Positions 38,889 to 44,103 of a stretch of 64,000 bases of DNA are shown here, piece by piece. The stretch covers positions 28,382 through 92,381 of the forward strand of contig NZ_JAMXFD010000011.1 of NCBI RefSeq assembly GCF_025370875.1, written 5' to 3'. The notes beneath the pieces were generated by a model. That model was not told the origin of the DNA, did no database searches, and was given only the letters and a program-made list of their open reading frames with translations. The position numbers were made by a program, and so were the translations under genes. This stretch comes from Laspinema palackyanum D2c (GTDB lineage: Bacteria > Cyanobacteriota > Cyanobacteriia > Cyanobacteriales > Laspinemataceae). The first letter of the stretch is position 1. Each line of letters starts with the position of its first letter.

Positions 38889-39467
38889 ATGCCAACTCGA
38901 AAAAACCCTGAATCCATCTATCAACTAAAAATTACTCTGAGCAATATCCGACCCCCCATTTGGCGGCGAGTACAAGTGAGTAGCGATTACACCTTGGCAG
39001 ATTTACACGAAGTGATCCAAGTCGTGATGGGTTGGGAAGATTGCCATCTTCATTCATTTACCATTCAAGGGGAAGATTACGGAATGCCAATGGATGATGA
39101 TTTCGGCTTTGGGGGCGTGGAAATGAAGAATGAAACCCGAGTCAAACTCAGCAAAATCATCCCCGGAGAAAAGTTTAAATTCTCATACCTCTACGACTTC
39201 GGCGATTCCTGGGACCATCAAATCCTCGTCGAGAAAGTGCTGCCACCGGATCCGGATGTCAAATATCCGATTTGTATAAAAGCGAAAAGAGCCTGTCCCC
39301 CAGACGACTCTGGCGGTCCTTGGGGATATCCAAATTTCCTAGAAGTGATCCAAAATAAAAAGCATCCGGACCATGAAGAAATGCTCGACTGGGTAGGTGG
39401 CTCTTTTGACCCCGAGGAGGCTAACCTAGATGAGATTAACGCTGATTTGAAGAGAGTTTTTAAATAA
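38889..39467 (+). CDS. Plasmid pRiA4b ORF-3 family protein
   Basis: A 192-residue protein: IYQLKITLSNIRPPIWRRVQV, LADLHEVIQVVMGWEDCHLHSF, FSYLYDFGDSWDHQILVEKV and CPPDDSGGPWGYPNFLEVI are signature phrases of this family (also called IS1096 TnpR-like). Members are named after mobile-element ORFs but have no demonstrated transposition activity. Complete in length. It stands alone beside repeat-rich DNA. Confidence 0.9.
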   Translation: MPTRKNPESIYQLKITLSNIRPPIWRRVQVSSDYTLADLHEVIQVVMGWEDCHLHSFTIQGEDYGMPMDDDFGFGGVEMKNETRVKLSKIIPGEKFKFSYLYDFGDSWDHQILVEKVLPPDPDVKYPICIKAKRACPPDDSGGPWGYPNFLEVIQNKKHPDHEEMLDWVGGSFDPEEANLDEINADLKRVFK

Positions 39468-39891
39468 GATGACTCATCTTCCAAGCTAGAAAATTGTTAC
39501 AGGTTTGAAGAAGCAGGACCAGAAACCGGGTTTTTAGCCAAAATTTTGGAAAATTATTATAAGTTTTGTCACAAAACCCGGTTTCTAACCTTTAAAAAAG
39601 TACAAAGCAAGGAAAATAATAAACTTTTAAACCTCAGTAGAGGCAGGTGAAATATAAAAATTAAGGTTAAAATTTGGTATGATAAAGAATCTGCTTTTTT
39701 AGAAGTTATTTTTTAAGAAAAGCTGGGGTTTATGCGAGAACCCAAGCCTATCAGCTATTATCATACTATAATTGTTATAGGGTGAGTGTCTGGGGAAAAT
39801 CCGGAAGAGGGGAGGGCGATCGCATCCTCGATGAAACAGGCCGCAGGAGTAAACGCCTTGCGCGGATATGCTGGAGGGAAGCCATCTACTG
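39468..39891. repeat. AT-rich spacer with inverted AGAAACCGGGTTT repeats
   Basis: AGAAACCGGGTTTTT (39521-39535) and AAACCCGGTTTCT (39574-39586) are inverted arms about 40 bp apart. The rest is AT-rich with no gene. The same arms occur in pairs at 44382-44429, 58992-59027 and 60698-60735. Confidence 0.6.
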
Positions 39892-40704
39892 ATGAAAACA
39901 GATAGCCTATTTTACCAAATATTTCAGCAGTTTCCTGCAAGTTTTTTTGAAGTTATCAATCGCTCTGCCAGCGATGCAGCCGCTTATCAGTTTACCTCAG
40001 TAGAACTCAAACAAGTGGCGTTTCGGATTGATGGAGTGTTTCTACCCAAACAGGAAGAGTCTACCCAACCATTTTATCTGGTAGAAGTTCAGTTTCAACC
40101 CGATGATAGTTTATATTATCGCCTCTTTGGGGAACTGTTTCTGTATTTAAAACAAAATCAACCACCCCATCCTTGGCGGGTGGTGGTCATTTATCCAAAC
40201 CGCCGCATCGAACGCGCACAAGAGTTACAGTTTGCAGAAATGTTAGAACTCACTCGCGTTTCGCGGATTTATCTGGACGAGTTGAACGACTCAACTGAGT
40301 CCTTGGGAATTCAGGTGTTGCAACTGGTGATTCAAGATACCGAAAGTGCAGCAACAGAAAGAGCGAAACAATTAATTGCTCGCTCTCAATCTCAAATCAC
40401 CTCCGAAGAGGTGCGACGGCAGTTTATCGAGTTAATAGAAACCATCATCGTCTACAAATTACCGCAAAAAAGTCGGGAGGAAATTGAAGCTATGCTGGGA
40501 TTGAGTGAATTAAGACAAACCAAAGTCTATCAAGAAGCCTTTACCGAAGGCAAACTTGAAGGCAAACTTGAAGGCAAACTTGAAGCGATTCCGAAAATGA
40601 TTCAAAAAGGAATTAGCCTGGAGGAAATTGCCAATATTTTAGACTTACCGTTAGAAACAGTTCAGCAAAATACCCCCGATTCTGAAGGGAAATCGCCAAC
40701 TTAA
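39892..40704 (+). CDS. Rpn/DUF2887 family putative nuclease
   Basis: A 270-residue protein from the ATG at 39892 (MKTDSLFYQIFQQFPASFFE), chosen because family members start there; an in-frame ATG at 39868 also exists. The PD-(D/E)XK-like core shows FRIDGVFLP and FYLVEVQFQPDDSLYYRLFGELFLYL, with Asp and Glu-x-Gln at the usual catalytic sites. Downstream phrases are PWRVVVIYPNRRIE and IETIIVYKLPQKSREEIEAML. Three copies of a 12-bp repeat encode GKLE (40553-40588), a slippage-prone tract typical of this group. Related RpnA-type proteins are DNA nucleases; this one is untested. A strong terminator follows at 40782. Confidence 0.85.
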   Translation: MKTDSLFYQIFQQFPASFFEVINRSASDAAAYQFTSVELKQVAFRIDGVFLPKQEESTQPFYLVEVQFQPDDSLYYRLFGELFLYLKQNQPPHPWRVVVIYPNRRIERAQELQFAEMLELTRVSRIYLDELNDSTESLGIQVLQLVIQDTESAATERAKQLIARSQSQITSEEVRRQFIELIETIIVYKLPQKSREEIEAMLGLSELRQTKVYQEAFTEGKLEGKLEGKLEAIPKMIQKGISLEEIANILDLPLETVQQNTPDSEGKSPT

Positions 40705-41043: not shown

Positions 41044-42984
41044 CTACGAATCTTCACGGGAGAGGAGGAGACGCAGGCGACTGCCCTGTATGTCTCCTAG
41101 TCCCCAAAAATGCTTCTGATGCCCGAGAACTGCTGGTAAATGACCTTCCGGCGCGTCGGTATCGAACTGAAGATCTGGGTAGTACAGCCAGTTTTCTTCT
41201 TGTTTCCATCCCACTGTTTCGGCGAATTTTGACCAAATTTCTGCCTTATATTCGCCCGTTCCACCTAAACCGTCATAAATACGTTTTTGTCGGGAAAACC
41301 CGAAACGATCATTGCTGTTTGTTTTCCACAGATGATTGATATAACTGAGATGTTGTTGAGAAAACCCGTTGATACTTTTATCATCGAACCACTTTGTACT
41401 TTTGACAACTTCCAACATGACCCGCCTTGTTTCATGATCCGCCTCCTTCCACTTACCATCTTTCAGTAAATTTTCTAACTGACTGTAATCTATGCCCTGT
41501 GGACATTCTATTGGAGGAAATGGTGTAATTTTTGTTCCATTTACTGGATTTTGAGAGGTTTCCGGCTCTGAGCTCTTAGGATTCGTTGAAAATTGTTTGA
41601 TAATTACTTGTGTTAAATCTTCATCATCTTGTACGGTGTACAAATCGTTGCTTCGACTTGCTTCCAAAACTCGCTCAAACTTGGTAGGGTTATCCAAAAG
41701 TGTATCTCCCTCTAATTTTGCTTTGTAAAACAGACGAGCGGCATTGCCCACCGTAAAAATCATTAGGGCTTGAGAAACTGCGCGGATATTTATTTCATCG
41801 AAAAAGTCAACATCGAGCCATCCAATACCGGCATTGATCGCCCTTTTTCCGAGCCAAGCTATACCGAAAGCTGCCAACGCTTCAAACTGTCGTATCGGGC
41901 TGTTCAAATCGAAGTCGTAGATCCCCGCAATTTTAAAAACCATTTCGGCACATTCCTGCGTAATGGTTTTTAAGTCGCATTTGGCTACGCTAGAGATAGC
42001 GGTTTTGATTTCATCTTGAATATCCTCGGGAGCTAGGTCTTCTATGTAACTAATTCCGGCTACTTTAAAAACTGTTTCTTTGATCAGGATGTTGGCAATT
42101 TCGTCGCGAGTATGATTGGGATATTTTGTTTGGAGTTCTGCTACGTGGTTTCTTGCTTGTTCAAAATCAACGTCAAACCAAAGCTCTGCAAGGGGTTCAA
42201 TCGCCCGAGTGATAGATCGTTTTGCTTGACCTAAGAGCCACTGAACTAGCTGATTCCAGGCTGCTGGATTGGCCTCTGATCTTAATTTATTAAGTTGATT
42301 CAGTTCTGGGTTATTCTCGATTTCATCATTGATATTCTCTCGGATCTGGTCTGGGGTTGGCACTTTTTTGGGTTGGGCATTATTGCCGTTGTGATTCGGT
42401 TTTTGTTTTTTATTTTTTGTTTTTTTTGTCTTTGTTTTTATTTTTTGTTTTTTGTTTCCCGGCTCTCGGAGCTGGTTTAGGGAATGAATAACCTCAATTC
42501 CCAGGTCGCGACATTCATCGATTAAAACTTTATATTGCGTTCGCCGGTCGAGGAGAATGACGGCATCTGGAAGCCGAGCCATTCGTTTGATGCCCCTCAA
42601 AGGATTCAACTGACGCTGCAAATGGGCAATCTCTTCCCGTTCAGACTCATCTAGTTTTTCTAGCCTTTCTAATTGTTGCAGCTTCGATAACTTGGTCAGG
42701 ATTTTTCCCGAGTACAGTCGATTTACATAACAGTGCTGTTGACCCGTCTTGTAGCGATAAACTTTCCGACTATTTTTGCAATAAAATATTTTATCTTTGT
42801 AGCACTTTGCTAATTTGTCCACCAGTTCTGATGTCCGTGGTTTTGTTCCGACAATTAGAAAAATTTTTTCCTGGTGGTTGGGTGCTTCTATATACTCGCA
42901 AACCTGTTCCATTAAAGTTCGGGGATATCGGGATTTTTGATTGATTTTTGCCCGGTGTCCGGTGTTTGAGGGCTTCCTTGCCAT
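41044..42984 (-). CDS. Ribosomal-S2-like domain fused to a GUN4 domain
   Basis: A 646-residue protein with an unusual layout. Residues about 39-170 read like ribosomal protein uS2: FLIVGTK (42-48), HCYVNRLYSGKILTKLSKLQ (84-103), GIKRMARLPDAVILLD (131-146) and DLGIEVIHSLN (160-170) match in order the conserved S2 phrases (VGTK, YVN-WLGGMLTN, GGIKxMxxLPD, LGIPxxxxVD). A Lys/Gln-rich low-complexity linker follows (176-205). Residues 236-425 are helical with two hydrophobic stretches, faintly EcsC-like. Residues 498-617 are a GUN4 domain: DYSQLENLLKDGKWKEADHE, NDRFGFSRQKRIYDGLGG, and TDAPEGHLPA. GUN4 binds porphyrins and activates Mg-chelatase in its stand-alone form; fused versions are signalling-type. 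The gene is visibly more A/T-rich than neighbours. Domain calls are by eye. Confidence 0.8.
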   Translation of the reverse strand: MARKPSNTGHRAKINQKSRYPRTLMEQVCEYIEAPNHQEKIFLIVGTKPRTSELVDKLAKCYKDKIFYCKNSRKVYRYKTGQQHCYVNRLYSGKILTKLSKLQQLERLEKLDESEREEIAHLQRQLNPLRGIKRMARLPDAVILLDRRTQYKVLIDECRDLGIEVIHSLNQLREPGNKKQKIKTKTKKTKNKKQKPNHNGNNAQPKKVPTPDQIRENINDEIENNPELNQLNKLRSEANPAAWNQLVQWLLGQAKRSITRAIEPLAELWFDVDFEQARNHVAELQTKYPNHTRDEIANILIKETVFKVAGISYIEDLAPEDIQDEIKTAISSVAKCDLKTITQECAEMVFKIAGIYDFDLNSPIRQFEALAAFGIAWLGKRAINAGIGWLDVDFFDEINIRAVSQALMIFTVGNAARLFYKAKLEGDTLLDNPTKFERVLEASRSNDLYTVQDDEDLTQVIIKQFSTNPKSSEPETSQNPVNGTKITPFPPIECPQGIDYSQLENLLKDGKWKEADHETRRVMLEVVKSTKWFDDKSINGFSQQHLSYINHLWKTNSNDRFGFSRQKRIYDGLGGTGEYKAEIWSKFAETVGWKQEENWLYYPDLQFDTDAPEGHLPAVLGHQKHFWGLGDIQGSRLRLLLSREDS

Positions 42985-43083
42985 GTTCGATTCCTTCCTA
43001 TGTCTAGGGTTGTCACAGTTTTAAGTTTGGCGAGTAGCGAAAAGGTGCTGTTTAGTATCAGAGTGTAACAGAAAGTTGCTTTC
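42985..43083. other. AT-rich upstream region of the S2-like/GUN4 gene
   Basis: It holds the leader of the minus-strand gene. No clear promoter pair or ribosome-binding site was recognised. Confidence 0.35.
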
Positions 43084-43269
43084 AAATAGCGGAAGCAGGC
43101 TTTCTAATAATACTTAGTCATAATGTAGCATAATATTACCAAGATTTCACCTTTGCTTTTAATAAGTGTTCGGAGGCTTTTCCAGGTAATACTCTAAAGT
43201 GAAAATCTGTCTTCTGTCGTTGCTGTGGTTTTGGGGTTGGTACTCATGAGAAAATTTCCTCCAACGATT
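43084..43269 (-). pseudogene. Degenerate duplicate of the Uma2 gene 5' part
   Basis: Aligning by eye with 43763-43950 gives a clear match: CAAATAGCGG, TTTCTAATAAT, GTCATAATGTAG, TTTTAATAAG-GTTCG, CCAGGTAATA and AAAATTT-CTCC-AACGA recur in the same order. The copy covers the start codon region and about 55 codons, with many substitutions and indels. It sits directly downstream of the intact Uma2 gene, so it is a tandem duplicate that has decayed. Confidence 0.7.
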
Positions 43270-43274
43270 ACTTA

Positions 43275-43928
43275 CTAAGCTTCGGGTTTAATTTGCTCTC
43301 TCACCCAGGCGCGAAAGGTTCTGATTAACGTGGTTTCCCCAACGGTTTGGCTTTGTTCTAAAAACTTGGCAACTTCGGTCACGGGTAATACAGGAAACGC
43401 TAGAGAATGCCCTGTTTCTACATAGTTGCCCGATCGCAATTGTAAAAACTGGACCACACCGCGATCGCATCTCCAGATTTCTGGTACTCCCATTGCCGCA
43501 TAAATCCCCTCTCGGTCAATGGAACTGCTGGTGACATCAACTTCGATTACCAAGTCAGGTGGTGGATCGGTTTTTAAGTCGAGGCGTCGCTTTCCTTTGA
43601 TAGAACTCTCATTTTGGATATAAAAACTTGAATCGGGTTCTGAAGCGCGAGCCAAATCTGGGTTCTTCAATGTGGTGGAACCAGCTCTAATGATTTCTAT
43701 ATTTAATTCCTCCGCTAATACACCAACCAGAGCAGAGATTAATTCTTTGGGATTCTCATGTTCAAATAGCGGGGTCATGATTTCTAATAATCCTCGGTCA
43801 TAATGTAGGCGAATATTGCGGTGATCTCCAATTTCATTTAATAAGCGTTCGTAAGTCTCCCAGGTAATATTCTGGAGTAAGACTCTGCCTTCGGTGGGTG
43901 GTTTTGTTTTGGGGGTGGTGGTAGTCAT
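43275..43928 (-). CDS. Uma2 family (DUF820) PD-(D/E)XK nuclease-like protein
   Basis: A 217-residue protein from the ATG at 43928. Core phrases are LNEIGDHRNIRLHYDRGLLEIM, LFEHENPKELISALV, ARASEPDSSFYI, PPPDLVIEVDVTSSSIDR (catalytic Asp and Glu-x-Asp) and MGVPEIWRCDRG. The start ATG overlaps the TAA of an upstream fragment (TAATG), showing that two genes were once translationally coupled. It belongs to a different Uma2 subgroup from the one at 24512 (DPPPDLVIEVD versus PDWAYIPH). A decayed duplicate lies just downstream. Function of the family is unknown. Confidence 0.87.
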   Translation of the reverse strand: MTTTTPKTKPPTEGRVLLQNITWETYERLLNEIGDHRNIRLHYDRGLLEIMTPLFEHENPKELISALVGVLAEELNIEIIRAGSTTLKNPDLARASEPDSSFYIQNESSIKGKRRLDLKTDPPPDLVIEVDVTSSSIDREGIYAAMGVPEIWRCDRGVVQFLQLRSGNYVETGHSLAFPVLPVTEVAKFLEQSQTVGETTLIRTFRAWVREQIKPEA

Positions 43929-44103
43929 TAAAAAATTTGCTCCCAACGACGAAAATCTCGTTCGACTTCCATCCACAGCGATCGCTGGTGTGGATCGATA
44001 CGGAGGGCTTTATTTGAGGATATTATAGCTTGGTCTAGGTCTTTGGGGGCGATCGCATCGCGTTCCCGTTGATAGGCGATCGGCACTACAGACACCCCGT
44101 CAT
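43928..44103 (-). pseudogene. 3' fragment of a gene once coupled to Uma2
   Basis: A minus-strand frame ending at the TAA that overlaps the Uma2 start reads DLDQAIISSNKALRIDP...MEVERDFRRWEQIF. It is protein-like and has good HIP1-type codon context, but upstream it runs straight into the palindromic element at 44104, and no start or further coding sequence is found beyond it. It is the tail of a protein whose 5' part was lost. The family is not recognised, though ALRIDP has a TPR-like flavour. Confidence 0.5.

Follow-up and report, generated by a model that had tools for sequence, protein, structure and literature searches.

Kaur et al. (2020, 2021) describe GUN4 as a cyanobacteria-specific effector or sensor domain of conflict systems that probably senses photosynthesis status (PMC7159879, PMC8195603). 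For GUN4-bearing orthocaspases, domain swapping has been suggested (PMC5756287), and a GUN4-kinase gene appears as a table entry, which is weak evidence, among the genes changed in a phage-resistant substrain (PMC10811720). The LxNxLR motif is needed for bilin binding by GUN4 (PMC10156173), and porphyrin binding depends on other residues too (PMC8967248). Within the window, the 64,000-nucleotide stretch of Laspinema palackyanum D2c DNA analyzed here, one gene joins a uS2-like segment to a GUN4 domain. To our knowledge, universal ribosomal proteins have rarely been turned into part of another protein.

The gene occupies 41044..42984 on the minus strand, the strand having been missed by the first-pass annotation. 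Its reading frame is intact, begins with ATG, and comprises 646 codons plus a stop, an extent that agrees with full-length orthologues. Pfam Ribosomal_S2 (PF00318) matched residues 24–169 (profile positions 41–179 of 216) at 45.5 bits against a cut-off of 26.1 (E 6.8e-12), and Pfam GUN4 matched residues 496–619 at 126.9 bits against a gathering score of 29.2 (E 8.1e-37). The S2-GUN4 fusion that had been read from the letters alone is therefore confirmed, including the uS2 similarity of its N terminus. Searched with phmmer against PDB chains, the 646-residue protein found GUN4 at E 2e-13 and, as its best uS2 match, chloroplast uS2 at E 1e-7; the Pfam scan found no kinase, caspase, or TIR domain. 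The predicted structure of the whole protein had a mean pLDDT of 35. Scanning genome contigs, we found full-length relatives in Phormidium pseudopriestleyi FRX01 and Oscillatoria sp. HE19RPO 292; these two are G388:C38 and G390:C225 and not additional genomes. The orthologues lie at L058:9347-11191 and L059:9391-11259, and are 80% (G390) and 86% (G388) identical to the window protein. Because two other genomes carry the gene at full length, the fusion is neither a product of chance nor an assembly chimera.

The protein divides into five parts and a tail, all encoded on the minus strand. The basic uS2-like head (residues 24–170, profile 41–179; 42475..42915) was delimited by PF00318 and an alignment with 61 cyanobacterial rpsB sequences. 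It is followed by a Lys-rich, indel-prone linker (residues 171–235; 42280..42474), seen in the orthologue comparison and a charge count, and by an EcsC-like helical domain (residues 236–430; 41695..42279), delimited by its relatives, profile–profile comparison, and hydropathy. A second, variable linker (residues 431–490; 41515..41694, orthologue comparison) leads to a GUN4-paralogue domain that lacks the LxNxLR motif (residues 491–622; 41119..41514; Pfam, phmmer, and alignment). The C-terminal tail (41047..41118), with its SRED- or ER-[DE]W-like end, is alignable in the seven family members of the core profile A2 described below. Upstream of the gene, the region 42985..43234 (minus strand) could be aligned in three of three orthologous loci, and a AGGAAGGA-like stretch, read by eye, precedes the ATG.

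To compare the head with ordinary uS2, we defined conserved columns from the 61 cyanobacterial rpsB sequences, leaving out three outgroup rpsB of the 64. All three heads cover 83 of the 141 columns conserved to 90% or more, and 32 columns are identical in all three. What the heads retain is the coiled-coil hairpin, the GIKxMxxLPD segment, and the order of the uS2 segments. What is missing is profile positions 1–40 and 180–216, with the first (HFGHQ..WNPKM) and last (DTNCDP..NDDAIRS) uS2 blocks; the RWLGG motif has degenerated to RLYSG or RRYSG, the coiled coil is ~11 residues (7 + 4) shorter than in uS2, and a hairpin-like segment is inserted. The orthologue heads scored 55.7 and 65.3 bits with Ribosomal_S2, and the rpsB equivalog model (NCBIfam TIGR01011, cut-off 76.3) was missed by the window protein (41.1 bits) and by the orthologue L059 (55.8 bits). 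Identity is 36–40% to the closest cyanobacterial rpsB and 26–34% to those of E. coli, Rhizobium, and Bacillus; at 32–35%, the rpsB of the window genome itself is more distant than the closest one. In a tree the three heads form one clade (support 1.0), whose position among cyanobacterial rpsB has a support of 0.166 and a stem of 1.67, so that the tree does not fix the source rpsB. The heads carry 35 K+R against 20 D+E (170 residues), and 37 against 15 and 44 against 17 (165 residues each), compared with 26 against 20 in 145 residues of rpsB from the window genome; they are thus more basic than the compared rpsB stretch, which differs in length.

An AlphaFold model of the head, whose alignment included uS2 rows, had a mean pLDDT of 66, with ten-residue blocks at 73–89 over residues 21–60 and 91–170 but at 41–51 over 61–90. 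The best 50 Foldseek rows were all ribosomal entries, and because their TM-scores were only ~0.35–0.43 with an rmsd of 6–11, the model and search support a uS2 fold weakly. A normal rpsB is present elsewhere in the window genome (L057:1016-1822), followed by an ORF that we take to be EF-Ts, as the first-pass annotation had anticipated; beside the gene at 41044-42984, no tsf-like ORF was recognized. The proposal that the uS2 fold has been reused outside its ordinary context also held, in the form of a shortened uS2-like head on an EcsC-GUN4 protein; a core fold of the ribosome has apparently found a use beyond it.

The first-pass annotation had further tied the protein to tetrapyrrole status. 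In alignments, all four defined positions of LxNxLR differ in the window protein, and the motif is absent from it and from six aligned relatives (seven family members; the later-found genes of G687, G734, and G786 lie outside this alignment), whereas the stand-alone GUN4 proteins of the same three genomes (G000, the window genome, G390, and G388) keep it intact as LSNQLR, in a separately encoded protein of 246 aa. Because the bilin motif is absent, the link to tetrapyrroles is unsupported.

The middle domain had been guessed to resemble EcsC (residues 236–425), and this guess stands through relatives, although the window protein itself gave no direct Pfam EcsC match. Residues 266–428 match 441-aa cyanobacterial proteins at 35%; of two relatives of this type, L062 passes Pfam EcsC (38.9 against 30.4 bits) and L055 falls below it (25.5 bits), and hhalign aligned the middle domain with the family A5, which includes L062, at a probability of 99.9% over 207 columns. 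Three further relatives (L122, L124, and L125) scored 24.9, 23.5, and 21.8 bits, also below 30.4. The best 19-residue hydropathy mean was 1.1–1.3 in the three orthologues against 1.6–2.1 in five stand-alone EcsC-like proteins; this low value is not family-wide, since the relatives in G646 and G129 reach 1.9 and 1.5. Among the EcsC-like proteins, those at L061 form a tandem pair, and the C terminus of L055 has a weak Pfam TerB match below the cut-off.

A search with the middle domain found matches in at least 198 of 388 genomes of the order (up to six of the best first-look candidates scored per genome) and uncovered proteins that share both the middle domain and GUN4. From seven of these proteins we built the core profile A2, which gave full-length matches of 590–661 bits in at least eight of the 388 genomes, the next match being 155 bits; up to four candidates were scored per genome, which makes eight a lower bound. 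Repeating the core search in 61 genomes of G129's family with up to 31 candidates scored returned the same four and left the count unchanged, and in at least four of 192 genomes of G646's family (up to nine candidates) it found the core, three of them new (G687, G734, and G786). G687 carries two core genes, and the cores of G734 (324 bits) and G786 (253 bits) are more divergent. In total, the EcsC-GUN4 core occurs in at least 11 genomes and 12 genes.

The N-terminal head on this core varies. It is uS2-derived in G000, G388, and G390 (Pfam); a ~58-residue segment in G129, G336, and G605 (L122:2155-2328, L125:1261-1440, and L124:1081-1260), for which Pfam gave no match at E up to 10 in L122 and L125; WD40 in G646 (Pfam) and in both G687 copies (by eye); a Cys-rich, zinc-ribbon-like segment in G734 (by eye); and a short basic, low-complexity segment in G786 (by eye). 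The G647 gene meets the contig start and contains an internal TGA, so that its head cannot be seen. Because the same EcsC-GUN4 half occurs behind different heads in 11 genomes, uS2 is one swappable head, a feature that the first-pass annotation had missed. In a further G687 gene, which lacks GUN4, WD40 repeats flank an EcsC-like part. Judged by eye, the ORF beside the G734 family gene (L204:3109-3804) resembles a REP-associated transposase, and the one beside the G605 gene (L124:2761-3564) a tyrosine recombinase.

The uS2-headed form is rare. Among 14 family genomes the gene was found only in G000, G388, and G390, all within the genus (eight genomes). Over the 388 order genomes, PF00318 gave more than one match in at least 12, these three included (up to seven candidates scored per genome), and, with six of the other nine multi-match genomes reinspected, a second uS2-like gene of the head type was found in these three only. 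The extra matches in G400, G411, G502, G548, G588, and G598, and the inspected single match in G494, proved to be split, broken, or truncated rpsB pieces, those of G502 and G548 adjoining a nearly or fully complete rpsB. The multiple matches in G635, G640, and G651, the best of which have E values of 6e-68, 2e-74, and 9e-61, look like split rpsB. The head as a query matched in 353 of 386 genomes of the phylum; among the matches listed, the window gene scored 391.8 bits and the next 50, and all others lay in rpsB-sized frames of 240–351 aa. A phage, viral, or plasmid origin was considered and rejected: a peptide-pattern search of viral contigs returned no relatives, nor did searches of phage records and PHROGs. 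Six plasmid records matched the head, five of them annotated as rpsB and the sixth lacking an annotation there. None of the 31 plasmid records matched by a family member covered more than 80% of that protein, and in these searches no full fusion was found on plasmids.

The gene lies in a variable accessory-gene site with Uma2 genes, in line with the Uma2 debris described earlier, and the cargo differs across the eight genus genomes. Within the reach of the contigs, the site runs from dnaJ or rpoC2 through one or two Uma2 genes, a cargo, DUF2887 (not in all genomes), PRiA4, and a MoaD-like ORF to a threonine-synthase-like ORF, where dnaJ, rpoC2, MoaD, and threonine synthase are names that we presume. 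In the window the left border is a Uma2-family gene (43275..43976, minus strand; Pfam Uma2 E 1.3e-20), the right border a DUF2887 protein (39868..40704, plus strand; Pfam E 2e-78), and the conserved right flank a PRiA4_ORF3-like protein (38889..39467, plus strand; Pfam E 8e-72) with the MoaD-like ORF. The window genome has one Uma2 copy at the border, and the other genomes in which that side is visible have two. Both borders fall on one contig in five of the eight genomes (G000, G386, G387, G390, and G391), the site is split over two contigs in G388 and G392, and G389 was seen on the right flank only. DUF2887 had no match in G391, G389, and G392 and is shortened in G387.

The cargo is the window-type gene in three of the eight genomes (G000, G388, and G390) and a giant protein with WD40 and Ig-like repeats, judged by eye, in G387, G389, and G392 (L108:2566-8568, L114:2928-8000, L116, and L112). 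Other signaling or defense-like genes also occur there. In G386 the cargo comprises an NB-ARC ATPase and a TerY-P triad of TerY, PP2C, and a kinase (L109:4361-10388; NB-ARC, Pfam E 3e-10; PADLOC TerY E 5e-75, PP2C E 2e-29, STK_OB E 1e-61), of which PP2C and the kinase are below Pfam's own cut-offs, and in G391 a TPR-like protein (by eye). Where the cargo is a different one, similarity to G390 on the Uma2 side runs through the second Uma2 gene and stops there, except for weak ~180-base matches to Uma2-like remnants upstream of the window-type gene. The Uma2 side adjoins dnaJ in G386, G387, G388, and G390 and rpoC2 in G000, G391, and G392, a rearrangement within the genus. At the Uma2 border of L116 lies a dnaJ-tail-like fragment (67%), as if marking a breakpoint (compare window:43275-46000 and L110). 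A repeated element occurs around the site in several genomes (L058:13846-14181, L112:8312-8671, and L109:3489-3770), its translations sharing RTRNRVSAT and KYKGQVKI or close variants. In a non-systematic look at the short flanks seen, no partner gene was recognized.

To determine how the parts have been selected, we calculated dN/dS by NG86 over three orthologue pairs with bootstrap intervals, dropping gapped codons. The core (EcsC-like and GUN4 domains) had a dN/dS of 0.45 (0.30–0.66), the head 0.96 (0.52–1.95), and the linkers 1.40 and 1.96 with wide intervals, while neighbor genes other than Uma2 gave 0.04–0.24 and Uma2 0.16–0.26. The head exceeded the core in 98% of bootstraps. We conclude that the core is under purifying selection and that none is detected on the head. 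No stop codon interrupts any of the three genes, whereas random placement of the same substitutions gave means of 6.4–7.9 stops, with 1, 0, and 1 of 1000 runs free of them. Changes among the three heads fell on 20 of 83 uS2-conserved columns and 20 of 82 others (p = 1). Changes thus do not spare uS2-conserved positions, and there is no sign that the heads retain RNA contacts of the uS2 type.

Synonymous divergence of the gene (dS 0.093–0.185) is lower than that of neighbors other than Uma2 (0.165–0.315) in most pairings, but not in all: for G000–G390 the clpA-like gene gave 0.165 and the gene 0.185. The lower dS allows, and does not show, more recent exchange. GC3 was 0.40 for the gene against 0.61 for the single comparison gene, rpoC2-like. 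Horizontal transfer, raised in the first-pass annotation, is no more than suggested by the AT-rich gene and its patchy distribution.

We tentatively favor, at a probability of roughly 0.4, a modular cyanobacterial signaling or conflict protein, in which an EcsC-GUN4 core would carry an interchangeable recognition head that is here derived from uS2; most likely, the window protein is neither a ribosomal subunit protein nor a Mg-chelatase cofactor. A recognition module mounted on a shared output core is consistent with head exchange, the variable site, the PADLOC part similarities described below, and the lack of constraint on the head, with the caveat that the PADLOC matches are confined to the GUN4 or EcsC portions, both of them frequent domains in these genomes, and that a head dN/dS near 1, with its wide interval, is equally expected from relaxed constraint. 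That last point leads to an unlikely but serious rival, that the head is a captured rpsB fragment drifting as a vestige while function resides in the EcsC-GUN4 core only. Besides the dN/dS of 0.96, the even spread of changes over uS2-conserved sites and the loss of conserved uS2 blocks at both ends speak for drift. Yet the head has no stop codon in three genomes, stops in the whole gene are far below random expectation, and the uS2 segment order is retained; the stop argument is weaker for the head alone because an N-terminal stop or frameshift would destroy the core too. A specialized ribosomal paralogue that replaces or competes with uS2 on some 30S subunits is very improbable: its clear uS2 homology, including the shortened coiled coil and GIKxMxxLPD, is set against the missing profile positions 1–40 and 180–216, the degenerate RWLGG, the loss of ~11 coiled-coil residues, and the missed rpsB equivalog cut-off.

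We also consider it improbable that, as the first-pass annotation proposed, the protein is a sensor coupling tetrapyrrole or chlorophyll status to translation. GUN4 fusions have been proposed as photosynthesis-status sensors (PMC7159879), and the GUN4 domain matches at E 8e-37; however, LxNxLR is lost from the window protein and six family members and kept in stand-alone GUN4, and a patchy distribution (three of eight genus genomes) is ill-suited to a core chlorophyll–translation link. Plant immune receptors carry integrated decoys, and by analogy the uS2 head might be a decoy or bait, a ribosomal-protein mimic mounted on a sensor that would detect invader factors directed against uS2, bS1, or the 30S platform; head exchange would then track changing targets. 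We regard this reading as improbable too.

In the signaling or conflict protein that we favor, the basic uS2-derived head would bind RNA or some ribosomal partner, such as 16S rRNA or bS1, a suggestion that comes from its homology to uS2 and its charge; in uS2 itself, both the coiled coil and the globular domain touch 16S rRNA, and bS1 binding requires uS2 (PMC10931766). Binding at the head might be relayed through the EcsC-like domain to the GUN4 domain, which would serve as a protein- or ligand-binding regulator, and the output could be part of a stress or anti-invader response. The three natural orthologues and the other-headed genes on the same core form a natural comparison set, and because of these orthologues and head variants, both a non-ribosomal use of uS2 and the roles of the many GUN4-paralogue proteins of filamentous cyanobacteria are testable.

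Compared with known systems, the window protein resembles several in part. It shares with bacterial uS2 (rpsB) the homologous residues 24–170, with the coiled-coil hairpin and GIKxMxxLPD, but both ends are gone, RWLGG is degenerate, and there is an extra hairpin. Its GUN4 domain is GUN4 by sequence, matching 4ykb, 1y6i, and 1z3x, but unlike the Mg-chelatase cofactor it lacks LxNxLR, and a motif-bearing GUN4 is encoded separately. The middle domain aligns with cyanobacterial EcsC and EcsC-TerB-like proteins (207 columns, 99.9%), a group that touches PADLOC PDC-S29 through the EcsC-like relative L055 (E 4e-8), but in the three orthologues it lacks the equally hydrophobic segment of stand-alone EcsC-like proteins. 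Its GUN4 part (residues 489–621) matches positions 300–427 of one model of the anti-phage kinase PD-T4-6 (PADLOC, E 2e-32), but neither Pfam nor PADLOC found a kinase domain in the window protein. A literature search, with most subscription journals and all preprints outside its scope, found no paper on GUN4 with EcsC and none on a ribosomal protein S2 domain; the one paper on the EcsC family in cyanobacteria is unrelated, judging from its title. Among the best-ranked papers on GUN4 with an effector-associated domain, ribosomal protein S2, EcsC, zinc ribbon, or WD40, no title or abstract opening describes the architecture seen here. In the consulted parts of PMC7159879, PMC8195603, and PMC5756287, uS2 and EcsC-like partners are not named, and the main text of the first two does not contain the word "EcsC". 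The closest likeness is to the cyanobacterial multidomain GUN4 proteins with kinase, caspase, trypsin, or TIR partners, which are common in the same genomes and combine a C-terminal GUN4 paralogue with variable domains; the window protein is a multidomain GUN4 paralogue of this kind, a GUN4-paralogue domain fused to variable domains.
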